Virus record (IMG/VR): IMGVR_UViG_3300020469_000044
Span: 1 to 64,000 of that record
DNA: 64,000 nucleotides
Direction: 5' to 3' (one strand)
From: a virus
Below the pieces are notes generated by a model. The model was not told the DNA's origin. It made no database searches and was given only the letters and a program-made list of their open reading frames with translations. Shown here piece after piece: positions 2,878 through 24,284 of this stretch. Made by a program: the position numbers and the translations under genes. The stretch's first letter is position 1. Each line of letters opens with the position of its first letter.

Positions 2878-4086
2878 TTAAAATAACGCGCTAGCGTAAA
2901 TTAAGTTAGTATCTAATTCTTGTAGGCCGATAGCCTTAAGAACTCTATTAATAGGATCGACCATACATTTCTCAAATTGAGTATCGTAATCGATTTCAGG
3001 TGCTATCTCATATGGATGTTCGCCTGGTAAATATGCAAATGTATCGCAGATAGGATGTTTTGTATTATAGATCCTGAGCTTTTCACCATTTGCTATCATC
3101 TTATACTTGTTCTTGTATTTGGAATTATTGTTTAATAGATAGTTGTAAAAACCTGCTGCCTTTACATTTGGTGGACATTTAAGTCCGATTTGAAATTCTT
3201 TATTATCGTCAATAATATACTGTTGAATATTATTAGTTCTTCTATTAAAAGAAATATCGTCTATATTTACAAGCTTAAATTCAGTTTTGCATTTTTTTAG
3301 GAACTGTACCATTTCTTGTAATTCAGTTGGACCTGGCTTTGTTCCCTTTATAAACAATAACTTAAGTGCTTCTACTAATTTTTGTCTTGCAAATAATGGA
3401 GTAGAACTTTGAATAGTATCGTAGCCAATTGTCTTAATCTTTTTAAGAGAAGGGTGTCTATCTTTTACAGAAAGCTTATCTTCCCATGCAATATCTTGGA
3501 TATACTTTTTCTTTTTCATCCAAATACCTGAGTATGCAATAGATTCTAGTTCAAATACTAAGAAATTATCAGTATTGTGGACAGTTGCATATTTTTTCAT
3601 TGCTAAAGAAATAAATTCCTTAATTCTACGGTTGTAAACTTCTAATGTGAATGTTGTAACATCCATTTTTTTAGACTCATCTAGCCATTCAACAGAATCA
3701 TACATTTCACCAAATTGTACATAGTTAGAATCTGTATCTATGTAAATAACAGATGGCTTATGTAATTTGCCTTTTACCTTGATTCCAAGGTCTTCGTGTA
3801 ATTTAGTATCTTTATGCCAAAATTCATTAAAGTACTTATTTAATACTGTTTCTGAATAAAGTATTGCATTTTGACCTTGAAGAGTAATAGATTCTGCAAT
3901 ATTAATATCGAAGAAGTGAAACCACTTGTTACCAAATGCACCATAAATACTATTTAATGATAGCTTAACGGCTTGTTCATACGCCGTATATTTATTGCTC
4001 ATTATTTCATACTTATCGGCAAGAGCCTCTAATTCTTCTATAGATAAATTATCTATATTATCTTTTGCAGTTTCTAATACTTCCAT
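2878..4086 (-). CDS. 43B: DNA polymerase gp43, C-terminal half (fingers, palm motif C, thumb)
   Basis: Family B replicative polymerase fragment, 402 aa. It carries motif B as K41 and NSIYG (45-49), motif C as DTDS (117-120, the second catalytic aspartate pair) and a lysine-rich KKKKY stretch (about 182-186). It lacks the exonuclease domain and motif A, which are on a separate gene at 7978-9378. Its first ~35 residues are a charged helix matching the fingers helix before motif B in T4 gp43, so the break falls inside the fingers. The clamp gene ends 3 nt upstream. The C-terminal IYASALF may be a clamp-binding tail. An active polymerase needs both halves to assemble. Confidence 0.9.
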   Translation of the reverse strand: MEVLETAKDNIDNLSIEELEALADKYEIMSNKYTAYEQAVKLSLNSIYGAFGNKWFHFFDINIAESITLQGQNAILYSETVLNKYFNEFWHKDTKLHEDLGIKVKGKLHKPSVIYIDTDSNYVQFGEMYDSVEWLDESKKMDVTTFTLEVYNRRIKEFISLAMKKYATVHNTDNFLVFELESIAYSGIWMKKKKYIQDIAWEDKLSVKDRHPSLKKIKTIGYDTIQSSTPLFARQKLVEALKLLFIKGTKPGPTELQEMVQFLKKCKTEFKLVNIDDISFNRRTNNIQQYIIDDNKEFQIGLKCPPNVKAAGFYNYLLNNNSKYKNKYKMIANGEKLRIYNTKHPICDTFAYLPGEHPYEIAPEIDYDTQFEKCMVDPINRVLKAIGLQELDTNLIYASALF

Positions 4087-7977: not shown

Positions 7978-9378
7978 CTAAATTAGCTGACTAATTTTTT
8001 TTCGAATTAGTCTTGCCTTTTCAAAATATTCAAAAGATTTTGCTTTATATTCTTTACGTTGACTGTATAGGTCCGTGAGGATTCTTTTTAGGACAGAATC
8101 TTCAGTTGTATAGACTGCACCGTTTTCGCAAACAATATAATCTTTATTTTCTCTTTTTTCTTTTATCTCATGTTTTTCAACTTTTTCAACAAAAGAGTCA
8201 GGAGAAATATTAAATTGTCTCATAATTGAAGGATATAGAGAAGCAAAGTCAAACGCACTTACTCCACTATAAAAACCTACAAGTGGCTCTTTTACAAAAG
8301 CACCTGCATAACTACCATCTTTTCTATTATTATCTTTTCTCTCGCTCGCAATAATTTTATTTTGTTCTTTAAGTTTTCTTGCCATTAATGCCTCAGTCAT
8401 AGCAACAGGACTCGCTGCTTTATAGAGTGGCATTTGTGTAATATTTGCAAGAGTTAAAAGTACATCCATTGCCTTAATCTTTTGGTCTATATAATAGACT
8501 AAACATGAATCGACAATGTTGTAGTAAATATATTTTCTAAAATCTTTTTCATATAATTCTTGTAGGCCACCATTATATTTAATTTTCTTTAAACCTACGA
8601 TTTGACCAGACACATAATCAAGAGTATTTGATTCTTTAACCTTTACTGAACGATCATACTTGTCATACAGTTGCATATAATCAAGTATTCCCATATGAAG
8701 CGGTCTGCCATCCATTCTATCTACTGAACCTGTCTTTGCAGCTTCACTAATATCTATTTGTAGTCTTTTACAACGATTGACAATGTATTGCCAGTCATAA
8801 TTAATAAAGTTCCAACCTGTCATCATTGGAAACTTAGGCATAAATTTATGAATAAAATTATAGACCATGTCATACTCATTCTTAAACTTATAATAAGAAA
8901 GACTCCAATCGGAGTCTAGTGTTTTAAAATATTTGTTTGTGTCGTCTTCCATACCTTGAATATCTTCAAGGTCTTTTAAGCCTAAGACAATTGCCTTTCT
9001 TTCTGGTGTGATAATTGAAAATGAGAGAATGCGAGTTTTAGCTTCTTCAGGTTTTGGAAAGCCATCAACGATTTCAGTTTCAATATCTACAAAATAAGTT
9101 CTTGGTTTATTATATGCAAGAATTTCATCTCTATCTGCTTTTGGTAATTGATCGATAAAATAAATTAATGAGAATTTATTATATTGTCTTGCGTTTGACA
9201 ATTTTACAGGACGACCATCCCAATTCTGTGCACTTTCATGTTTGTATCTGTCTTTATCATCTGTTACATACCAATTTTGAAATTGGCCAACAGGGTATCT
9301 TTTAAAACTTACTTCTCCTTCTTTATTGTAATAACTTACAATTATTTCTTTTTCTCTTTGCTCAATATCTAATAACAT
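7978..9378 (-). CDS. 43A: DNA polymerase gp43, N-terminal half (exonuclease plus palm motif A)
   Basis: 466 aa carrying the proofreading exonuclease and the first catalytic motif of a family B polymerase. Exo I is FVDIET (about 96-101), Exo II GWNFINYD (about 188-195) and Exo III YYNIVD (about 285-290). Motif A is DFASLYPSI (about 377-385). The protein stops soon after the QRKEYKAKSF helix that in T4 gp43 leads into the fingers, so it lacks motifs B and C; these are on 2878-4086. Both halves keep all expected motifs, so this is a split functional enzyme rather than decay. It overlaps the upstream dUTPase-like gene by 1 nt (TAATG). Confidence 0.93.
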   Translation of the reverse strand: MLLDIEQREKEIIVSYYNKEGEVSFKRYPVGQFQNWYVTDDKDRYKHESAQNWDGRPVKLSNARQYNKFSLIYFIDQLPKADRDEILAYNKPRTYFVDIETEIVDGFPKPEEAKTRILSFSIITPERKAIVLGLKDLEDIQGMEDDTNKYFKTLDSDWSLSYYKFKNEYDMVYNFIHKFMPKFPMMTGWNFINYDWQYIVNRCKRLQIDISEAAKTGSVDRMDGRPLHMGILDYMQLYDKYDRSVKVKESNTLDYVSGQIVGLKKIKYNGGLQELYEKDFRKYIYYNIVDSCLVYYIDQKIKAMDVLLTLANITQMPLYKAASPVAMTEALMARKLKEQNKIIASERKDNNRKDGSYAGAFVKEPLVGFYSGVSAFDFASLYPSIMRQFNISPDSFVEKVEKHEIKEKRENKDYIVCENGAVYTTEDSVLKRILTDLYSQRKEYKAKSFEYFEKARLIRKKISQLI

Positions 9379-11316: not shown

Positions 11317-11778
11317 TTAAAATTTAAAGAATGGGTCTACACCAAGTTCGAACTTTTTAATATCTTTAATGTTAACCATCATGGATAAATATGGGGGATT
11401 ACTGTAACCATCATATTGACCAATTACCTTTGCGCCATTTATTGTTCCGTTAATATAATCAAAGCCTGAGCCAGGTATTTCAATATCTTTTTGGTTTTTC
11501 ATGCTATCGACAAGTTCATAATACCTGTCAGTTAGTGCTTTTCCATTAGGATGGTTTGCCCATGTATCTCCTCCAATAAGTTCAACTATTTGGTCTGTTC
11601 CTAAGTAGTCTGTTATAAATTTCCAATCTCCATCAAGCTCTTCTGGTTCTGCATTACCTTCTTCTCTGTTATACCAGTCTTGCTTAAATCTTTTAGCCAT
11701 TTTTTTAAGTTCTGCTGGTGTTGTAGCCATCCTATCGTTTTCAGTAATAAATTCTTCGAATAATTTTATATTTTTCAT
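11317..11778 (-). CDS. Putative capsid-targeted internal protein
   Basis: 153 aa from the ATG at 11778. That start was preferred over a longer upstream reading because it gives MKNIKLFEEFITEND, the head-targeting N-terminus shared by several genes here and resembling the T4 capsid-targeting sequence (MKTYQEFIAE). A prohead protease would be expected to cut after ITE (residue 13). The rest is a small acidic globular domain that I do not recognise. It lies directly before the terminator at 11245-11273. Confidence 0.65.
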   Translation of the reverse strand: MKNIKLFEEFITENDRMATTPAELKKMAKRFKQDWYNREEGNAEPEELDGDWKFITDYLGTDQIVELIGGDTWANHPNGKALTDRYYELVDSMKNQKDIEIPGSGFDYINGTINGAKVIGQYDGYSNPPYLSMMVNIKDIKKFELGVDPFFKF

Positions 11779-11791
11779 AATTGTTGTTTTT

Positions 11792-11863
11792 TTAGCAATC
11801 GCAACAGTTGCAATTACAACTAGTTTCACAATTACACTCTTTACATTCACATGGTTTTTTCAT
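11792..11863 (-). CDS. Cysteine-rich micropeptide, metallothionein-like
   Basis: 23 aa, ATG at 11863 and TAA at 11792-11794. Nine of 23 residues are Cys (positions 5, 7, 10, 12, 16, 18, 20, 21, 23), in C-x-C and C-C spacing with Lys, Glu, Asn and Asp between, and no aromatic residues. That composition is typical of metal-thiolate cluster peptides. It sits between two head-targeted genes, 18 nt after one stop and 13 nt before the next ATG. The expected role is Zn, Cu or Cd binding. A chance ORF with this composition is unlikely, but no family is recognised. Confidence 0.5.
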   Translation of the reverse strand: MKKPCECKECNCETSCNCNCCDC

Positions 11864-11881: not shown

Positions 11882-12301
11882 TTAAATTTCTGCTGAGACT
11901 AAATCTCTTTCTCCATAGGAAGCCATCATCCATTGTTTTGATCTTTCATCCCATAAATAAACATATTCCGCGCCACCATCGTCTTCGGCATCCGCTAAGT
12001 AATTTGCAATTCTAGCAACATTACCAGTCATCGCTCCAGAATCGTCATTGTAAAAGTTAATATTTTTAGGATTTACTTCTAAACCTGAACCACCTCCTTG
12101 TGAAATTACATAGTCTACATTTTTTCCACCTTTATAACCTTTTCTTAACATAGGTAATATGTTTTCAGGATAACCATCGTAATGCATATATACAGATGTT
12201 ATATTTCCTCTCTTGTCAATTTTTCCAAATTGAGAACGAGTACCTTCATTAATTCCTTGAGATTCATTAACGAAGTCATTAAAATTCTTAATATTGTTCA
12301 T
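11882..12301 (-). CDS. Putative capsid-targeted internal protein
   Basis: 139 aa from the ATG at 12301; a longer reading would need a TTG start inside the promoter motif. The N-terminus is MNNIKNFNDFVNESQGINEG, which holds two candidate prohead-protease sites (FVNE-S at 13 and GINE-G at 19). The remainder (KGYKGGKNVDYVISQGGGSG, then NPKNINFYNDDSGAMTGNV and EYVYLWDERSKQWMMA) looks like a small alpha/beta domain that I do not recognise. The GATATATAA motif at 12327-12335 lies 25 nt upstream. Confidence 0.65.
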   Translation of the reverse strand: MNNIKNFNDFVNESQGINEGTRSQFGKIDKRGNITSVYMHYDGYPENILPMLRKGYKGGKNVDYVISQGGGSGLEVNPKNINFYNDDSGAMTGNVARIANYLADAEDDGGAEYVYLWDERSKQWMMASYGERDLVSAEI

Positions 12302-12326
12302 AATGCTTTTTTTGTTTTTCAATATA

Positions 12327-12335
12327 TTATATATC
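12327..12335 (-). promoter_or_regulatory. GATATATAA motif, candidate late promoter
   Basis: Minus strand GATATATAA, 25 nt ahead of the head-targeted gene starting at 12301, with an A-rich leader between. It would serve the packaged-protein and Cys-rich peptide genes down to the terminator at 11245-11273. Confidence 0.5.
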
Positions 12336-12338
12336 AAA

Positions 12339-13982: not shown

Positions 13983-15119
13983 CTATCTTTGATCTTTTGC
14001 GATGCTATTAGCTTGAGCTCTAAACTGATCCATCATGTTTTTAGATTTTAAACCTAAATCATCAAATGCGTCTTTGCCATACCTTTTTTCTAACTCTTTA
14101 TTGCTGCTTTTTAAAACTTTCATAAGCTTTTTATATTTCTGAGTTTTTTTTCTGTATTTTGCAAATGCATCATCAACATCAGTTGGATCTGCTTCATCCA
14201 TTGCTGCCATAACCTTATCAAGATGGTCTAAGTTATCAATTGCCTTGTCAAAGGCTCCTTGAACATCTAGTTCTTGAAATTGATTAATAATATCCTCTAC
14301 TTCTTTTTCTTCTTTTTTTGATTCTTTTCCTCTTAACCTTGAGAAAAAACCCTCTTTTAAAGATTCACCTAAGTTTGCATAGTCTTTCGCGTATTTTTTC
14401 AACATTCTTTCGTTATAATATTCATCTAATTTATCTAGGAAAGCTTCATGTGAATAGTCCATTCCCGGTACTAAATATTCTCCCATATATTTACCATGTG
14501 GAGAATTTAAAAAACCAATTGCTTGTTTTTCTGTCATTCCTTTATCCATTAAAACAGTAACAGCGCTTTGGTAAGCTCTTTGACGGTCTTTAGCATTTAA
14601 GTCTGACATTTCTTTAAGATATGCAACATAACCTAAACTTTTTCTAGCATCTTTAATTTTAGCTTCATCTACAGATTCGTTTTGAGCGTCAAACCATGCA
14701 ATTTGCCAATCATCTATATCAAACTTATAGAATGATACTAAGTCTGCAATTTTATCATTAGCGGCTGGATCACCATCTCCTCTTTCAACTCCAGTAACGT
14801 CACGATAATTCTTTGTAATAAATGTTGCAAGTTCCTGTTCACTTGGTCTTCTTCCTAATTCCTTTATGACTTTCTTAACGGTGTTATATCTACCAACTGC
14901 CTGATATTCTTCATTTAAAAATCCACTAAATGTAGTATGTAACATAGTTTCTTCTTTTCTATTTTTAAGATACTCTTCTCTTTCTTTCTTCTTTTTCTTT
15001 TGCTCTTTCTTAGCATCTCCTTTACCAGCAGGTACATCTCCACTTCCTACTTCTCCACCTTGTGGAAAGGCAGGATTTCCCATACCTCCAATATTTGCTG
15101 GTGAAATGTTTTCGTTCAT
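13983..15119 (-). CDS. Putative capsid-internal/core protein
   Basis: 378 aa from the ATG at 15119, which overlaps the stop of the 1,104-aa gene (TAATG); the 2-codon longer form would need a TTG start. A Gly/Pro-rich N-terminus is followed by a Lys-rich coiled coil, then LHTTFSGFLNEEYQ, the head-targeting/cleavage signature placed internally (about residues 60-72). Another cleavage-like SVDE-A follows at about 152. The C-terminal half is highly charged and helical (KESKKEEKEVEDIINQF and KKTQKYKKLMKVLKSS). No enzyme motif is seen. It is probably packaged with, or scaffolds, the head core; the terminator follows directly. Confidence 0.6.
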   Translation of the reverse strand: MNENISPANIGGMGNPAFPQGGEVGSGDVPAGKGDAKKEQKKKKKEREEYLKNRKEETMLHTTFSGFLNEEYQAVGRYNTVKKVIKELGRRPSEQELATFITKNYRDVTGVERGDGDPAANDKIADLVSFYKFDIDDWQIAWFDAQNESVDEAKIKDARKSLGYVAYLKEMSDLNAKDRQRAYQSAVTVLMDKGMTEKQAIGFLNSPHGKYMGEYLVPGMDYSHEAFLDKLDEYYNERMLKKYAKDYANLGESLKEGFFSRLRGKESKKEEKEVEDIINQFQELDVQGAFDKAIDNLDHLDKVMAAMDEADPTDVDDAFAKYRKKTQKYKKLMKVLKSSNKELEKRYGKDAFDDLGLKSKNMMDQFRAQANSIAKDQR

Positions 15120-18100
15120 TACCAAGCTAAGTTTCTTTTCTTAAGTTTACCTAAACGATCTTTAATCTCTTTAGCGTATTTCTTCATTTCATCACTGTAG
15201 TATTTTACTGTCCAAGTATCTTCTTTGTCTTCTTTTGCATTTGCAACAGTGTCAGCAGCTTTAGCCCATCTTTCATAGTCTTGCATTAAATTGTTTGTAA
15301 AGTTATTTAAGTCAGAAATTCTGTAAGCCTTTCCATCTGCACCTGTTCCCATGATAAATTCTCCATATTTATTAACTTCTCTCTTCTTAACGCCATCTGC
15401 CATTATTTTAGCAACTTCCTCAATTGCTCCTACTACTAAATCATCAATTGGAAGTGAATTTGCTCTTTGCTGTAAGATTGCTTTATACTTTTCCATGTTA
15501 TGATTTTTAAATTCTTTAGGGTCCATTAATGCAGTAGCTCCTGATTTTTGCTCTCTTCTTTTAACTTGTAAATCTCTTGAATCTGGCAATGCAGCTGTAT
15601 TAATTACAAATGCAGCATCAGCAAGGTCTATCATTCTTTTTACATTATAAACTCCAGTAGAGTCATAACCTTTATATTTTTTATTAATTCCAATATCAGA
15701 TTGAGAGCGTTTATCATTTGGAGTTAAAGAATAACCTGTTTTACCTGATTTTCTATCATAATGGTGTGTCATATATGCAACTTCTTTTCCCATGCCTATA
15801 CCGAGAATAGTGTTTGCTGGGAATTTTAAATTACTTTCAATGTACCTGTTATCATATTTGTCAGCATAGGGGTTTTCCTTTTCTTGAGTTGTATAATAAA
15901 CTACTAGGCCTTCTGCTTTTTTACCTTGCTTTGGATCGATGTCTATTATTTGCTCGTCTTTAATTTGGTCTAATCTAATTTTACTAAAGCCGTAAATTGC
16001 TTTTAGTATTTTTGCATTTCCCTGTTTCATAGAAAGAAGACCTCTAAGCTTAGAACTTTTAAGTGCTTCATTAATATCTAAAGATTCGTTAACGAATTGC
16101 TGAAAGCTAGCGTGTATTGTGTTTTCTTCTATTTTATTTGATTCATATTGCTGTACCATTTGATAATGCGATTTTATAAAATTAAGAAATTTTTCATAAG
16201 AATCCTTTTGAGTTTTTGGAGTATCAAATGCTTTAAACTTATCATGTTTAAATACTTTCTTTATAAAGTCTTCTACATTTTTTGCCGTTCTTGCGATACC
16301 TGTTAACTTTGCAGTAAAGCTTTCGTCTAATTTAAAAGATTCTAGATAATCTTCTCCACCTTGTTCGAAGTCATCCATTGCAGCTTCTAATTCCTTTTTA
16401 GAAAAACCTGCTTTTTTGCCAGCTTTCATATATTCCTTTTCATCTTTAAATGAATCTATATTTGCTGTAAACCAATCTTTTATAGATTTTTCATTAAGAG
16501 ATTCATTTATAAACTGATCAAAGTCTGTATATATTGTTGATTCTTTCATTGCTTTTGACTGTTGTTTAAGTTCTTCATATTCACCCTTAAGGTTTTTTGT
16601 ATATCTATCAATTCCCCAATTAAATGAAGCCTTAAAAATATGTTCAAATGGAAGTCCATTATATTTTCTACCGTATGCTGATTGACTTAACCAGTCTAAG
16701 TATGCCTGGGCCATTTCTTTAGAAAGTTTAATACCTTCAACCTCCGATGCAAAACCTTTAGCAACGTCTTTTAACATTTGAGTTGCTTTTGCTCTTTCAT
16801 TGATTTCTACCGATTCTTTGATACCTAAAAAGTCTGCTGCTGCAGATTTAAGTTCTGCATAAGTATATTTTCCTTTTAATGCATCGCTAAGAATAGTTCC
16901 TTCTTTTTTACCACCTCCAACATACATTGATACATGATCGAAGCCTAACCAATCTCCTCCTGAAAATTCATGATCTGGATTCATACCTAATTCTACTGAA
17001 AGAGTATATGATAAAGACCTTTTTCCAATAAATTGATCGTTATAACCGAGTTTTCCGGCTTTTACATATCCGGCTGGATTGACCTTTGCCTCGTTAATGT
17101 TTTCTTTTTTTATATTTGTTTTAATATTTTCGTCCATTTTATCACCGTTAGGTTTTTTACCAGTTTTAATAGCATAAGAAACTACTTCCTTAGTATTAAA
17201 TGCAGGTTTTGGAGCCTTACCTCCATTATATTCTTTATCCCATTTTGCAATAGATTTATCATCTTCTAAATCAAATTCACCATTCTTATATGCTTCAATT
17301 GCTTTCATAGTAAATTGAGAGTCCCAAGATTTTGGTGCCTTAGCTTCATTAACTGATTCTGTCATTACTAACGCTATATCTTTATAATCTATCTCATACT
17401 CATCTCCATCTTGGTCAACTGCAAATACTGATTTATCATGCCACATCTCAGCATTATCATCATTGTTAGAATCAGGATTGTAGATGATGTATTCTTTTCC
17501 ATCTCCGGTTTGAATTGTTGCATCGTCTGCATCACCTAATCTTTTTAATAATTTTTTCTTATCATATCTAGCTTCATTAACTGATTCTAAAATATCAAAT
17601 ATGTGAAAACCTCCACCTGTCATTTTATCTGACCATTCAACATGCTTAAGTTCAACATCTGGCTCAACCTTCTTAATAGAATCAATTACCGTTTGTGGGT
17701 TAATCTTGTAACCATACATGATTTGAATTCTTTTCTTGTTAAGTTTAGTAATTTTTGGCTTAGTATTACCTGTGTAGTCTATTGCCAATTGATATGCAAT
17801 ATCAGATTTGTTTAAAGCTTCATCTAATGATTCTTTAGCAAGCTTGCCAAAATGTTTCTTAAAAAAAGTAATAAAGTCTTTGGTACTGTCATCCATGTGT
17901 CCAACCTTTAAACCATTATGAGCAGCGTTTATTACACTACCATCATCTATAATCATATAAGTGCCTCCATCAAATTCATCTCCATCATAATCTAAATCAA
18001 ATGAATCTTCCTCTAATGTTTTCATGTTAACTGTACATTTAACTTTGTCAACTTTACTTATTGCTTCTGCAATTTTTTTAGCAACTTCTAATGTTTCATC

Positions 18101-18433
18101 CTTTGTAAGTCCCATAGGTTTTTTAGTTCCTATTGCTTCATTTACAGGTTGAATAGTTTTAAGAACTTTTTTACCATAACCTGAAAGGCTTACGCCGTCT
18201 TCTTCTATTTTAAAAAATCTTTTATTTCCTCTTGTCCATTTTGATGGAGCTAAAGAGTGTTGACTGACTATTTCATTAAATTCATCAACTGTAATTTTAC
18301 CGTCCTTTAATGCTTCGATAATTGCATTTCTAACTCTAGCTGAATTGCCTACGGTTTTAGCGGGATGTGCTTCAGTATATCTTCTTTTAAGAGTTATATT
18401 TTTTTCATTTAAAAAATCTTTGAATGTTGCCAT
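15119..18433 (-). CDS. Giant head-targeted polyprotein with multiple prohead-protease sites
   Basis: 1,104 aa. It starts MATFKDFLNEKN, matching the head-targeting N-terminus. Short cleavage-like motifs recur about every 55-105 residues: PVNE-A (99), SLDE-A (205), SVNE-A (287), SVNE-A (363), NINE-A (448), EINE-R (546), FINE-S (644), KLDE-S (704), FVNE-S (783) and DINE-A (789). These match the T4 gp21 rule (hydrophobic-x-Glu before a small residue). The segments between are unlike one another, each about the size of a small domain. Residues 790-1104 form the largest piece (GLVVYYTTQEKENPYADKY, then ALPDSRDLQVKRREQKSGA), which I do not recognise. I infer a polyprotein packaged in the prohead and cut into about ten small proteins. 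The promoter motif is 29 nt upstream. Confidence 0.7.
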   Translation of the reverse strand: MATFKDFLNEKNITLKRRYTEAHPAKTVGNSARVRNAIIEALKDGKITVDEFNEIVSQHSLAPSKWTRGNKRFFKIEEDGVSLSGYGKKVLKTIQPVNEAIGTKKPMGLTKDETLEVAKKIAEAISKVDKVKCTVNMKTLEEDSFDLDYDGDEFDGGTYMIIDDGSVINAAHNGLKVGHMDDSTKDFITFFKKHFGKLAKESLDEALNKSDIAYQLAIDYTGNTKPKITKLNKKRIQIMYGYKINPQTVIDSIKKVEPDVELKHVEWSDKMTGGGFHIFDILESVNEARYDKKKLLKRLGDADDATIQTGDGKEYIIYNPDSNNDDNAEMWHDKSVFAVDQDGDEYEIDYKDIALVMTESVNEAKAPKSWDSQFTMKAIEAYKNGEFDLEDDKSIAKWDKEYNGGKAPKPAFNTKEVVSYAIKTGKKPNGDKMDENIKTNIKKENINEAKVNPAGYVKAGKLGYNDQFIGKRSLSYTLSVELGMNPDHEFSGGDWLGFDHVSMYVGGGKKEGTILSDALKGKYTYAELKSAAADFLGIKESVEINERAKATQMLKDVAKGFASEVEGIKLSKEMAQAYLDWLSQSAYGRKYNGLPFEHIFKASFNWGIDRYTKNLKGEYEELKQQSKAMKESTIYTDFDQFINESLNEKSIKDWFTANIDSFKDEKEYMKAGKKAGFSKKELEAAMDDFEQGGEDYLESFKLDESFTAKLTGIARTAKNVEDFIKKVFKHDKFKAFDTPKTQKDSYEKFLNFIKSHYQMVQQYESNKIEENTIHASFQQFVNESLDINEALKSSKLRGLLSMKQGNAKILKAIYGFSKIRLDQIKDEQIIDIDPKQGKKAEGLVVYYTTQEKENPYADKYDNRYIESNLKFPANTILGIGMGKEVAYMTHHYDRKSGKTGYSLTPNDKRSQSDIGINKKYKGYDSTGVYNVKRMIDLADAAFVINTAALPDSRDLQVKRREQKSGATALMDPKEFKNHNMEKYKAILQQRANSLPIDDLVVGAIEEVAKIMADGVKKREVNKYGEFIMGTGADGKAYRISDLNNFTNNLMQDYERWAKAADTVANAKEDKEDTWTVKYYSDEMKKYAKEIKDRLGKLKKRNLAW

Positions 18434-20050: not shown

Positions 20051-21886
20051 TTATTTCTTAAATTCAGCAAACGTTAAAACCTGCTCTTGCATTTCAACAC
20101 TTTCTTCCATTGTTTGTTTTAATAATTCGTACATTTTATGCATTGACTTTGGCGTCATAGACTTAAACGTTCTTTCATCTCCATCTAATAAGGCGTTTCT
20201 TACCTTTGTTGCACTAATGTTATCGTCTGTTCTTGGAATTTCTTCTAATCTAAAATCTTCATCAACTCCTAATTCTTCTCTGTATTTTGGGTTATTAACT
20301 TGATAGCCATATGTTTTCATTCTATCACTACCTGTTCCCCAAAGTACTGGTTCATATTTAGGTCTCATTGCATTGAACATTTTATCAATTGCGCCAGTAT
20401 CTATTACATAAACCGTTTCAATAGGATATTCTCTCATCACCTGTTTTATCATATTGACTTGCATTGTTTCATCAAATGGTCTTTTAAAACTGTCTTCTTT
20501 CTTTTTAGTTTTAGATTTGACTAAAAATATAACAGTTGGCAATCCATTTTGCTTATGTAAATGTTCAACAACTTTAACATGGCCTAATGTGAATGGTTGA
20601 AACCTACCTACAAACATATTAACTTCTTTGGCACCTTTTTCTTTGTGCTTTATTTTTAAACCTTCATTGATAGGATTTATTTGACCTTTAAGTGTATCGT
20701 TAATTTTAAAAGTTTTAAAATCCATTACACCGTCTTCCTCTACCTTTTCGTAAATTCTTGTTTCTATCTTTTCTATAATAGTGTTTAAGCTATTAAATGT
20801 ATCGCCGGCTAAAACTCCATTTTCTTTTTGTCTTTTCTTTCTAAAAGTACCTAATGTAATTTTAAGTAGCTCAGCAACTTCTCTTGATTCATTAACAAGT
20901 CTGATAGTTTCTTGATTTGTTATCATCTTTGGGTTTAAATCAAACTCTTCATTGTTTGCAAACTCTGCACTATTAAAATCCATACCGATAAAACTTGCTC
21001 CATTGTCTTTTATAAATGAATTAAAACCTGCTGTCATTAATTCTAAATATCTCTCATCTACTTCTTTACTTTCAAGCTGTATTTCACTAAAATCAAATGA
21101 GTTAAAGTATTCAATGAGCTTTACTACTGTAATTTGATATGCATCGGAACTTTTTCTTTCTGCAGCTTCTTTATTTTCTTTTAGGGGACTTTGTAATTTA
21201 AAGTTCTTTAATGTTTTTCCATCAGCAAAACTTATTACTAAACCATCTATGTCTTTATGAATGTCATTATTTAACATTGACTTATACATAGACTCATTAA
21301 ATACTGTAAACATTCTATATGAAAAACTAAAGTCTTCTAATTTCATTCTAGCCTGTTCTCCTTGTAAACTTAGTATATTAACTAACTTTTCCTTTTGATG
21401 ATCTGAAAGGACACCTTCAAAAACAACTTCAGGAGATTGTACTTCTAATATTTTTGCCCATTTTTCTAGAATTCTTGGATCTCTAAGAACTTTTTTAATT
21501 TGAGTTCTATCTTCATTAAGAACTTGAATGTGTGTTAATATAAGGTTATTTTTTGGCAGCATATCATATTCAATATCTACTGTCTTTTCACTAACCATAT
21601 AGTCAAATCCAAATTTCCAATCATTTGGCATTTGCTGAATTTGTTCGTCTAGTAAAGCGTTAAAGTGGCCAATTCCTCTTTCATAATAAGAAACTATTGT
21701 TCTATCTATTTTATTAAGAGGCTGTTTATTACCTGATTTATAAAACTGCAAAAGCCTGTCTTCTCTTCTTATATGAAGACTACTTGCTTGAATTTTTTCA
21801 GTTACTAAACACTTTTGGTTTAGTAGACTATTAAAGTCTTCTTTTTCAACTGAATCATAATATGTTCTTAAATCTTGTAATGCCAT
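20051..21886 (-). CDS. Nucleic-acid-ligase-like domain fused to NMN-adenylyltransferase-like domain
   Basis: 611 aa, two enzymatic parts. Residues 1-240 resemble covalent nucleotidyltransferases (DNA/RNA ligases): a motif I-like TEKIQASSLHIRR with K31, FEGVL (156-160), motif IV DGLVISF (214-220) and a motif V-like NFKLQ (228-232). Motif I is KIQA rather than KxDG, so the activity is uncertain. Residues 423-611 match NadM-type nucleotidyltransferases: GRFQPFTLGH (427-436, HxGH-like) and ISATKVR (557-563). Between them lie NPINE-G (408) and LVNE-S (333), prohead-protease-like sites, so the domains may separate in the head. It sits in the packaged-protein block. NAD salvage plus nucleic-acid end sealing on entry is a plausible but unproven role. 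Confidence 0.7.
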   Translation of the reverse strand: MALQDLRTYYDSVEKEDFNSLLNQKCLVTEKIQASSLHIRREDRLLQFYKSGNKQPLNKIDRTIVSYYERGIGHFNALLDEQIQQMPNDWKFGFDYMVSEKTVDIEYDMLPKNNLILTHIQVLNEDRTQIKKVLRDPRILEKWAKILEVQSPEVVFEGVLSDHQKEKLVNILSLQGEQARMKLEDFSFSYRMFTVFNESMYKSMLNNDIHKDIDGLVISFADGKTLKNFKLQSPLKENKEAAERKSSDAYQITVVKLIEYFNSFDFSEIQLESKEVDERYLELMTAGFNSFIKDNGASFIGMDFNSAEFANNEEFDLNPKMITNQETIRLVNESREVAELLKITLGTFRKKRQKENGVLAGDTFNSLNTIIEKIETRIYEKVEEDGVMDFKTFKINDTLKGQINPINEGLKIKHKEKGAKEVNMFVGRFQPFTLGHVKVVEHLHKQNGLPTVIFLVKSKTKKKEDSFKRPFDETMQVNMIKQVMREYPIETVYVIDTGAIDKMFNAMRPKYEPVLWGTGSDRMKTYGYQVNNPKYREELGVDEDFRLEEIPRTDDNISATKVRNALLDGDERTFKSMTPKSMHKMYELLKQTMEESVEMQEQVLTFAEFKK

Positions 21887-21892
21887 TTCTTT

Positions 21893-22474
21893 TTATTTAG
21901 TCCAACCGTCAGGTGTTGATGAGATAGAAGTTTTAAAGCCCATTGACTTTACTTTCTTTGCTATCATCTCAACTCCTTTAGTTATTTTGTCAAACATTTC
22001 AACGTCTTTATCTTCAACTTTACTATATTCCTCAGGGTGTCTAATTTGTCTAGGGATATTTAAGTAAAATTCAAAACCATTTTTTGGAGAATATACATAT
22101 CCCATATCAGATGCGGAACCGTTTCCATATCTATAAAAACTAAACTTATTATATGCATCGCTTGGTATTTTTCTTTTTAAACTCCAAAAAGCGTCGTTAA
22201 CATACTTATATGCTTTAATTTCATTTGTTGTTGGAACTCCGTATTTTTTAATATATTTATCAATTGACTTTGAGTCTGATGAATAAACTGATAACACTCT
22301 AGAATTTGTTGCGTCATTTGCTCTAGCCGATGAACCGTCCCATGTCCACGGTGTTAGTGTCATAACTGAATAGTCTCTTGATCTATTACTAAAGATAACG
22401 TCTCTTGGAAAAAAGAATGCAACATTAGCTTGAGCTTCGTTTACAAATTCTTCAAATAGTTTTGTATGTTTCAT
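21893..22474 (-). CDS. Putative capsid-targeted internal protein
   Basis: 193 aa from the ATG at 22474 (MKHTKLFEEFVNEAQANV). I prefer it over a start 6 codons upstream because it places the head-targeting sequence first and sits exactly 3 nt after a GATAAATAT motif, as in six other genes. A cut after VNE (residue 13) would leave a 180-residue protein: a beta-rich start (VAFFFPRDVIFSNRSRDYSV), then YKYVNDAFWSLKRKIPSDAY and a helical end. I do not recognise the domain. Confidence 0.65.
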   Translation of the reverse strand: MKHTKLFEEFVNEAQANVAFFFPRDVIFSNRSRDYSVMTLTPWTWDGSSARANDATNSRVLSVYSSDSKSIDKYIKKYGVPTTNEIKAYKYVNDAFWSLKRKIPSDAYNKFSFYRYGNGSASDMGYVYSPKNGFEFYLNIPRQIRHPEEYSKVEDKDVEMFDKITKGVEMIAKKVKSMGFKTSISSTPDGWTK

Positions 22475-22477
22475 AAT

Positions 22478-22486
22478 ATATTTATC
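22478..22486 (-). promoter_or_regulatory. GATAAATAT motif 3 nt before ATG
   Basis: The minus strand reads GATAAATAT-ATT-ATG, the fixed-spacing form of the late motif. It lies inside the end of the ligase-like gene (22482-23747). Confidence 0.4.
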
Positions 22487-23747
22487 TTCCATATTTTATT
22501 ATACCCATAAGCTGGTTTATTGCAGCGAATGTACCTGTAAGTTTCATAATCTTACCTTTATATTTAAAGACTATTCCCTCTGTTGGTACAATACCTTCAA
22601 TACCTCCGATACTTTCTAGTCTTTCTAATTCTGCTTCGATCTTAGCAACTTGTTTTAAATCACCATTAAGTTTAACATTAGCAGCAGCTTTTCTAATCTT
22701 ATCGTGTAGGTTTTTCTTTTCTAAATCAGGATTTGCAGCAACAAAATTACTTGCATTTAATAATACGTCTTTTCCTAACTCTAAAAATAAGTTTTCGAAT
22801 GGTAAAATATTTTGCTTGTATTTTTTACCCTTTATCTTGTCAAACTCTTTTATTTTTTTCATTTGTTCAGGAGTGGCAAGTTTTTTCATAGCAACCATGT
22901 TCATAGTTTGCTTGTCATTATACGCCCATCTTAAAAATAAACCTTCTTTTAAATCACTTGGAATATCTGCAAAATCTTTTTCAATTTCTCTTCTCCACCA
23001 TGCTTCGTGATACATTTTAACCTCATCGCCGTCTGATAAATTAAATACATCTCTTAAATCATTTAATTTACTATGATAATAACTTTGTCTCTTTTCAAAA
23101 TCTACGTTTTTTTGAAGTTTTAATATCTGTGGTGGAATAATAGTAAATGTCTTTTGAACATCTGCCTCTATGCCTTTAAGAAGTCTTGCAAGTTTTGCAC
23201 CAGTTTGTTGTGACATTTTAGTAATATTACCTTTGCCATCTGTTTCTGCCATGCCGTGAAATTGAATAACATCTCTGTCATAATTAATTACGTTAGGGTT
23301 CTTAGAATAAATTAACTCCATATTAAGAAAGTTTTGACCATTCTTAAATTCTTGGTGATCGCTTAAACTTAATAATGCAGCTTCTAAATCAGTTGCAGCA
23401 TAGATAAAAGTATCTTCAACTAGTTTTGATGCATGGCCAGTAAACATTTTAATAACTCCATCTAAAGATACTGGAGCAAGTAGTTGTCCTTTATTTCTTG
23501 AGAAAAGAACTTGACCATCCTTTACTGTTACAAAAAAGTTTTGGCCATCTGTTTTTTCAGTAGGGCCTTCTTCAAAATGTATTTCGCCTTGTAATGAATT
23601 TGTAACAATAGTTTTAAAATCTTGGAAAGTTAAATCATTATAGTCAAAAGGATGTGGCATGTGGCCAGCAGCTCCTCCTTCTAAAATCAAATTACCCTCT
23701 ACTATCTGAGCCTTTTCGACTAGAAATTGTTTGTAAGTTAATAACAT
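22482..23747 (-). CDS. Head-targeted nucleic-acid ligase-like nucleotidyltransferase
   Basis: 421 aa. The N-terminus MLLTYKQFLVEKAQIVEG is the best match in the window to the T4 capsid-targeting sequence (cut expected after LVE, residue 11). The rest carries ligase motifs: motif I EKTDGQNFFV with K65 (KxDG), a motif III-like FLNMELIYSKNPN (140-152), motif IV EGIVFKYKG (390-398) and motif V MKLTG (401-405). This predicts an enzyme that adenylylates its lysine and seals DNA or RNA ends. The gap between motifs III and IV is larger than in T4 Rnl enzymes. Packaging of a ligase in the head would deliver it with the genome. Substrate unknown. Confidence 0.65.
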   Translation of the reverse strand: MLLTYKQFLVEKAQIVEGNLILEGGAAGHMPHPFDYNDLTFQDFKTIVTNSLQGEIHFEEGPTEKTDGQNFFVTVKDGQVLFSRNKGQLLAPVSLDGVIKMFTGHASKLVEDTFIYAATDLEAALLSLSDHQEFKNGQNFLNMELIYSKNPNVINYDRDVIQFHGMAETDGKGNITKMSQQTGAKLARLLKGIEADVQKTFTIIPPQILKLQKNVDFEKRQSYYHSKLNDLRDVFNLSDGDEVKMYHEAWWRREIEKDFADIPSDLKEGLFLRWAYNDKQTMNMVAMKKLATPEQMKKIKEFDKIKGKKYKQNILPFENLFLELGKDVLLNASNFVAANPDLEKKNLHDKIRKAAANVKLNGDLKQVAKIEAELERLESIGGIEGIVPTEGIVFKYKGKIMKLTGTFAAINQLMGIIKYGR

Positions 23748-23762
23748 GTTTATATTTTATTT

Positions 23763-24284
23763 TTATCCTAAAGATGATTGTAACATTCCTACAGCTGCAC
23801 CATAATCTCCGTCAGCTTTCTTTAACATTCCTTCTCCTGCTTCTTTAGCTTTAGCTTCGTCAAAATCATCGCCAAATGCTTCTTTATACATTGTCATAAC
23901 CATTTCCATAAAATCTTCATCAGATTTAACTTCAGCTTCTTCAACTTTAGCTTCAGTAACTTCATTAGATTCTTTTACTTTATAAGTTTCTCCATCTACT
24001 GTAAATTCTTTTTCACCTTTTTCTTTAGCATCTTTAACAGCAGCACCGAATGCATTACCTTCAGTTTCTACCTCATCAGTTTCACCAACTAATTTACTAA
24101 AAAATTCAGTTCTTTGTTCTTCAGCTATTTCAGCAACAGTAGATACTTCATACTCTGCTAATAGGTCAGCAAATCTTTGAGCTTCAGTTGTTCTCTTTGT
24201 AGTTGCTTCTTCTTTTAATTTAGTGTCCATTGCTGCTTTTCTAGTTTCAGAAAACGTAGCAAATGATTGAATTTGATTTTCCAT
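23763..24284 (-). CDS. Acidic prohead core/scaffold-like protein
   Basis: 173 aa, very rich in Glu, Lys and Ala with few aromatics, as in phage scaffold and internal core proteins. The N-terminus MENQIQSFATFSETRKAAM keeps the F-x-x-F spacing of the head-targeting signal. ESNEVTEAKVEEAEV in the middle offers Glu-Ala cleavage sites. The C-terminus (EAFGDDFDEAKAKEAGEGML) is helical. It is the first gene behind the promoter motif at 24317-24325 in the packaged-protein block. A gp22 or gp67-like role is inferred from composition and context only. Confidence 0.55.
   Translation of the reverse strand: MENQIQSFATFSETRKAAMDTKLKEEATTKRTTEAQRFADLLAEYEVSTVAEIAEEQRTEFFSKLVGETDEVETEGNAFGAAVKDAKEKGEKEFTVDGETYKVKESNEVTEAKVEEAEVKSDEDFMEMVMTMYKEAFGDDFDEAKAKEAGEGMLKKADGDYGAAVGMLQSSLG

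Follow-up and report, generated by a model that had tools for sequence, protein, structure and literature searches.

The window, a stretch of 64,000 nucleotides, covers nearly all of IMG/VR record IMGVR_UViG_3300020469_000044, a 65,333-nt uncultivated virus fragment without head genes. T4-like replication, tail and baseplate genes were read from the open reading frames of this record, and the phage that carries the locus appears to be a marine T4-like phage. The window contains one long gene for what we term the polyprotein, surrounded by smaller genes with similar starts (Table 1). The frame of the polyprotein gene matched exactly the one given in the initial annotation (15119-18433, 1,104 aa), which had stated no strand; the gene lies on the minus strand, and its stop is overlapped by 7 nt by the neighbouring gene. 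The first proposed cut in the chain falls after E10 (FLNE/K; the slash marks a cut throughout). In T4, IPI is cut at TITE/A, and IPII and IPIII at MKTYQEFIAE/A. Reading the corresponding starts from AF158101, we found MKTFKEFTS...TITE for IPI and MKTYQEFIAE for both IPII and IPIII.

Table 1. Features of the polyprotein locus in the window. Family counts come from iterated profiles, one per piece, and include the window protein.
Feature	Position	Strand	Remarks
Polyprotein gene	15119-18433	-	ATG to stop, 1,104 aa
Capsid-targeting-type start MATFKDFLNE, residues 1-10	18404-18433	-	likeness to T4 IPs
S1, residues 11-99	18137-18403	-	pI 9.9; family in 49 proteins
S2, residues 100-205	17819-18136	-	family in 25 proteins
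S3, residues 206-287	17573-17818	-	family in 8 proteins
S4, residues 288-363	17345-17572	-	family in 18 proteins; more confident island in model
S5, residues 364-448	17090-17344	-	2 proteins including the window's; more confident island in model
S6, residues 449-546	16796-17089	-	family in 8 proteins
S7, residues 547-644	16502-16795	-	family in 17 proteins; ends in STIYTDFDQFINE (16502-16540)
S8, residues 645-704	16322-16501	-	2 proteins including the window's
S9, residues 705-789	16067-16321	-	family in 44 proteins; ends in NTIHASFQQFVNE (16085-16123) and LDINE
S10, residues 790-1104	15122-16066	-	35.9 kDa, pI 9.4; about 52-54 proteins
Neighbouring gene of the same type	13983-15125	-	contains MLHTTFSGFLNE and NESVDE
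Small gene	11317-11850	-	targeting-type start MKNIKLFEEFITE
Stand-alone small gene	11882-12337	-	start MNNIKNFNDFVNE
Small gene	21893-22492	-	targeting-type start MKHTKLFEEFVNE
421-aa gene	22482-23747	-	targeting-type start MLLTYKQFLVE
173-aa gene	23763-24284	-	homologues reach 902-930 aa through added modules

Internal cuts had been proposed in the initial annotation after the glutamates at residues 99, 205, 287, 363, 448, 546, 644, 783 and 789, each followed by Ala or Ser. All nine indeed sit in a hydrophobic-x-Glu motif, and Ala or Ser follows everywhere except at 546, where the next residue is Arg (VEINE/RAKA); one more site, KLDE/S at residue 704, had not been listed. The plain motif [ILVMF]xE was not enriched in the polyprotein over shuffles (25 versus 20.5 expected, p = 0.14), and therefore only the extended motif was counted as meaningful: [ILVM][ND]E[AS] occurs 9 times against 0.33 +/- 0.57 expected, a number that none of 5,000 shuffles reached. 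One junction reads DILESVNEARYD, and the codons vary across the polyprotein's own sites. The start signature has two internal copies, at residues 632-644 and 771-783.

Relatives of the polyprotein were found in IMG/VR (8 in a first scan, 113 in a second), while tblastn over 50,697 phage records of GenBank/INPHARED, megablast of phage records with the polyprotein region and a search of GTDB genomes with the S10 profile gave none. All ten pieces recur independently in other proteins, orders and genes across about 100 related phage contigs, S5 and S8 each in just one further protein, so that the pieces between sites, claimed at first to be separate and domain-sized, act as independent cassettes among relatives. 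The most widespread of the ten modules is S10: its 54 distinct carriers range from 335 to 1,170 aa, bar one truncated frame of 289 aa, and the sequence ahead of it varies from one module to several or nine. With x standing for sequence outside the window's ten families, the order is S1-S6-x-S3-x-S4-S7-x-S9-x-S10 in L022 and S1-x-S3-S7-S9-S10 in L024; S4-S1 close a different, 875-aa protein in L065, and S10 stands alone in L036, behind MNKIHTTFESFVNESLEVNE/ALKSS. Single-module proteins with a targeting start are known for S6, S9 and S10; these include the 167-aa protein L086, where S6 has its own targeting start, and stand-alone S9 genes of 83-108 aa that bring such a start themselves (MKHIKLFEAFVNES). 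In the close relative L023, most of the conserved genes around the locus encode proteins 86-98% identical to those of the window. The L023 homologue of the polyprotein has 678 aa and lacks S6 and S8. Both modules, S8 before S6, turn up in the L023 homologue of the gene at 11882-12337, which is enlarged to 297 aa; there the S8 stretch shows 93.6% DNA identity to the window's polyprotein gene. It follows that modules have moved between two genes that lie near each other. Long near-identical DNA repeats were considered as a cause of the modularity and rejected, only short diverged repeats being present, some of them at targeting-sequence starts.

We then compared module edges, defined by module profiles in non-redundant relatives, with the positions of [ILVM][NTDSV]E, taking the expectation from random positions of the same proteins. 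The motif was present at 94 of 110 left edges (16.0 expected) and at 79 of 102 right edges (16.5 expected). Of 83 clean module indels, 46 had a site where the shorter protein is joined, against 7.7 expected, and 26 had sites flanking the insert on both sides, against 1.7 expected. Replacing Glu by Asp or Lys in control classes left no enrichment (0.68x and 1.27x, respectively); Glu-Ala/Ser by itself reached 1.9x. Raw BLAST edges were enriched at sites just 2.7-fold because alignment ends are fuzzy; profile edges and explicit indels are sharper. The motif classes were widened after the relatives had been looked at, and the homologues are related, so the edge and site counts are not independent draws. 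For the site ahead of S10, in 44 homologues chosen by [ILVM]xE near the edge (no full-edge homologue failed this choice), P1 is always Glu (44/44), P3 is always Leu, Ile or Val (44/44) and P1' is Ala in 42/44, with P4-P10 variable. Because this peptide is kept while it is encoded by 25 different codon strings, the comparison points to selection on the site peptide and not merely on a DNA seam.

The polyprotein is not the only gene of this kind in the window. As had been claimed, other genes carry like starts, namely MKNIKLFEEFITE, MNNIKNFNDFVNE, MKHTKLFEEFVNE, MLLTYKQFLVE and MKTFIEYLEE. In relatives including L006, L034 and L073, the module of the gene at 11882-12337 occurs internally. Throughout the phage group, 166 of 716 non-redundant genes have a targeting-type start, 7-fold more than the 24 expected from shuffles. 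In a 205-kb relative, about 20 genes begin convincingly in this way (MKNIKLFEEFINE and alike, including MKTYEEFINE/A); the start scan of this relative lists more, some by chance. Homologues of the gene at 23763-24284 contain a small repeated unit (GNAFGAA...EFTVDGETYKVKE) that is also found in the protease-scaffold gene described next.

A protease of the gp21 family (S77) is encoded in 3/8 and 16/24 relatives' records (19/32), that of the nearest relative, L023, included. The ELNHP and SSRG of T4 gp21 are kept as ELDHP and SSRA, conserved in 12/12 aligned sequences. No such protease was found in the window's own 65-kb fragment, since this is a fragment without head genes. The protease makes up the N-terminal portion of a protein that can reach about 720 aa; the portion behind it looks like a gp22-type scaffold, an inference from position and repeats; in T4, genes 21 and 22 are separate. 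This gene can itself hold a module common to the other genes. In L014 (6635-8674), L122, L118 and others, the region fused to the protease has repeated [LIV]AE (YLAE, YVAE, HIAE).

In the group's major capsid protein, GINE is kept save for GIND in one member, and KLYE-D/E is kept in those read. The capsid cut site was considered as an independent test of specificity and dropped, given GIND in one member and the conservation of KLYE-D/E as well. The leader before the shell seems shorter than that of T4 gp23 in L012, L013, L102-L107 and L114, with GINE and KLYE as two candidate cut motifs. The major capsid protein of L014 is closest to that of an uncultured 462-kb phage (51%) and then to those of Prevotella Lak phages (38%), and because of these matches a Bacteroidota host is suggested, without proof.

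Sequence and fold comparisons did not identify the modules. None has a significant match in Pfam, PHROG, NCBIfam or PDB, and no known polyvalent or conflict domain or embedded peptidase was recognised in the polyprotein with these resources; for S1, Foldseek gave only weak, winged-helix-like hints. A single AlphaFold run of the full chain, built from a piecewise alignment, yielded a model (mean pLDDT 54, pTM 0.29) too poor to show ten domains. In this poor model all nine sites lie in 10-residue blocks with a mean pLDDT <=50, and S8 and S10 are the only more confident islands besides those marked in Table 1; Foldseek found nothing with E below 1 for it, only weak SH3/Hfq-like and winged-helix hints. 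The pattern of sites and islands is compatible with the proposed pieces but is a weak test of them. S10 modelled from 23 homologues reached a moderate pLDDT of 75.9 and matched no PDB fold.

The closest known counterparts are the T4 internal proteins. T4 gp21 cleaves after L/I-x-E, and IPIII needs no more than its first 10 residues for targeting (PMC9026906); the internal proteins form a variable set of defence proteins with the targeting sequence alone in common (PMC3012670). IPI, IPII, IPIII and Alt share the 10-residue start pattern of the polyprotein, MATFKDFLNE fitting the T4 type (MKT[FY]xEF[IL]xE), from which a targeting function is inferred. The cut motifs are likewise of one kind (FIAE/A and TITE/A in T4, FLNE/K and SVNE/A here); FLNE/K supplies the gp21-type [LI]xE with which the targeting sequence ends, although its cutting has not been shown. 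Both systems have small variable products and a homologous protease, which here is co-encoded in the relatives' records. Unlike in T4, where each internal protein has its own gene, about ten modules are strung in one gene, with single-gene versions in relatives, and several polyprotein-type genes stand side by side with modules moving between them. The T4 proteins are also basic, DNA-associated and small, which does not hold for every segment of the polyprotein (pI 4.2 to 9.9). Head proteins of the SPN3US/phiKZ type are cut several times per chain by a gp21-related prohead protease at a short motif ending in Glu, but these cuts strip one propeptide and leave one mature protein (PMC10052503), whereas the polyprotein pieces are reusable modules. 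In the T4 core proteins gp67 and gp22, too, one precursor gives rise to head peptides, but these are core or scaffold remnants and not shuffled independent modules.

We consider it likely that this gene specifies a polyprotein precursor from which a gp21-family protease, cutting at about ten junctions, releases internal head (ejection) proteins of the T4 type. Sequence establishes the start signature, the motif enrichment, the modularity, the coincidence of seams with sites and, in relatives, a gene for the protease; that the chain is packaged, cut and ejected, and what each module does, is inferred, as no proteomics exists. The initial reading as a packaged polyprotein thus gained support from the cassettes, from edges that fall on sites and from the gp21-type protease of the group, with cleavage, virion presence and injection still unshown. 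A rival reading is an intact polyvalent protein, packaged and ejected whole like P1 DarB or N4 vRNAP, with the motifs as flexible linkers and only the targeting sequence removed. Polyvalent proteins of 2-15 domains are a known phage strategy, some being transferred uncut, and they likewise combine many unrelated domains in one delivered polypeptide of mosaic architecture; Iyer et al. 2017 liken them to polyproteins (PMC5512222). The ten independently recurring modules fall within that range of domain numbers, and computation has not shown cleavage. However, a linker need not keep [ILV]-[N/T]-E-A in 44/44 homologues whose upstream sequence differs, and the same modules exist as separate small proteins. 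Release from polyvalent proteins, where present, is ascribed to embedded peptidase domains, and their domains are recognisable (PMC5512222), whereas the polyprotein has a prohead-protease-type site at each seam and no recognised polyvalent domain. We regard the intact chain as unlikely.

The sites could also be fossils, left by gene fusions that brought together modules each with a targeting sequence and a cut site, so that similar DNA at the seams promotes recombination and the internal sites are no longer cut. The two internal start copies fit such a history, as do S8 and similar modules behind a like start in another gene of L023, with 92-94% DNA identity at the seam. Most seams (e.g. ESVNE/A), however, lack the remainder of a targeting sequence, and the peptide is conserved while its codons vary, both among relatives (the 25 strings) and at the window's own sites, which makes uncut relics very improbable in our judgement. 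That the protein is a cytoplasmic fusion with no link to the head, its start resembling the T4 targeting sequence by chance, is hardly credible: no module has a recognised function, as such a fusion would allow, but the T4-type start is 7-fold over-represented in the group and a related module lies inside the protease-scaffold gene.

For the packaged and cleaved precursor, we propose that the N-terminal T4-like targeting sequence would bring the chain into the prohead core, perhaps with help from the two internal start copies, and that the prohead protease would cut after [ILV]-[N/T/D]-E at about ten junctions during maturation. The predicted products, nine of them small (roughly 7-12 kDa) and a tenth of 36 kDa, would stay in the head and be ejected with the DNA. 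The same junctions would also be the seams where entire modules enter or leave a chain, or pass to an adjacent gene or another phage. The targeting step most likely follows T4, resting on close likeness to it; cutting, likewise most likely, is argued from the motif, from how well it is conserved and from the protease encoded in the same phage group; for ejection and function there is analogy alone. By comparison with T4 IPI, the modules most likely serve counter-defence or host take-over.

T4 internal proteins are a classic example of injected counter-defence, few in number and each made from a separate gene. Made as one chain for the maturation protease to cut, such proteins would amount to maturation-coupled, stoichiometric delivery. 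It is plausible, without our yet leaning towards it, that the head delivers proteins combinatorially, with tens of small ejected effectors supplied at a fixed ratio by several polyprotein genes in each genome and the protease site serving as the standard seam for trading cassettes. If so, effector cassettes would be traded between genes and genomes in an arms race with hosts. Splitting such chains at the motif would single out dozens of proteins, their folds unknown, as candidates for injected effectors in a widespread environmental phage group, and the correspondence of one seam to one module offers a built-in rule for testing cassette exchange. The initial annotation knew of no T4-like phage with so many sites in one gene, and our full-text search, which did not cover subscription papers, likewise turned up no account of an internal polyprotein in T4-like phages that a prohead protease cuts. 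The initial reading was largely right, and we regard the arrangement as a novel form of T4 internal proteins, its polyprotein version undescribed in the literature searched.

Several further genes in the window deserve mention. The protein encoded at 22482-23747 has a TEKTDGQNFF stretch like motif I of RNA ligases, and has one homologue in Microcystis phage Mel-JY01 (35%, joined there to a cytidylyltransferase) and another in a 462-kb phage (32%, start MKFLKSYEEFLNE); it is possibly a packaged RNA ligase, with no profile or PDB match. The 611-aa product of the gene at 20051-21886 (minus strand) has an NMN-adenylyltransferase-like C-terminal domain (Pfam CTP_transf_like, 2e-8), an N-terminal half that is ligase-like by eye, and a targeting-like C-terminal end, VLTFAEFKK (VMTFQEYMNKLKS in L006). 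From sequence reading only, the DNA polymerase is apparently split in two genes (2878-4086 and 7978-9378, minus strand), with genes that read as two ribonucleotide reductase subunits and a sliding clamp between the halves, and the C-terminal half of the polymerase was read in the same setting in L016 and similar relatives.
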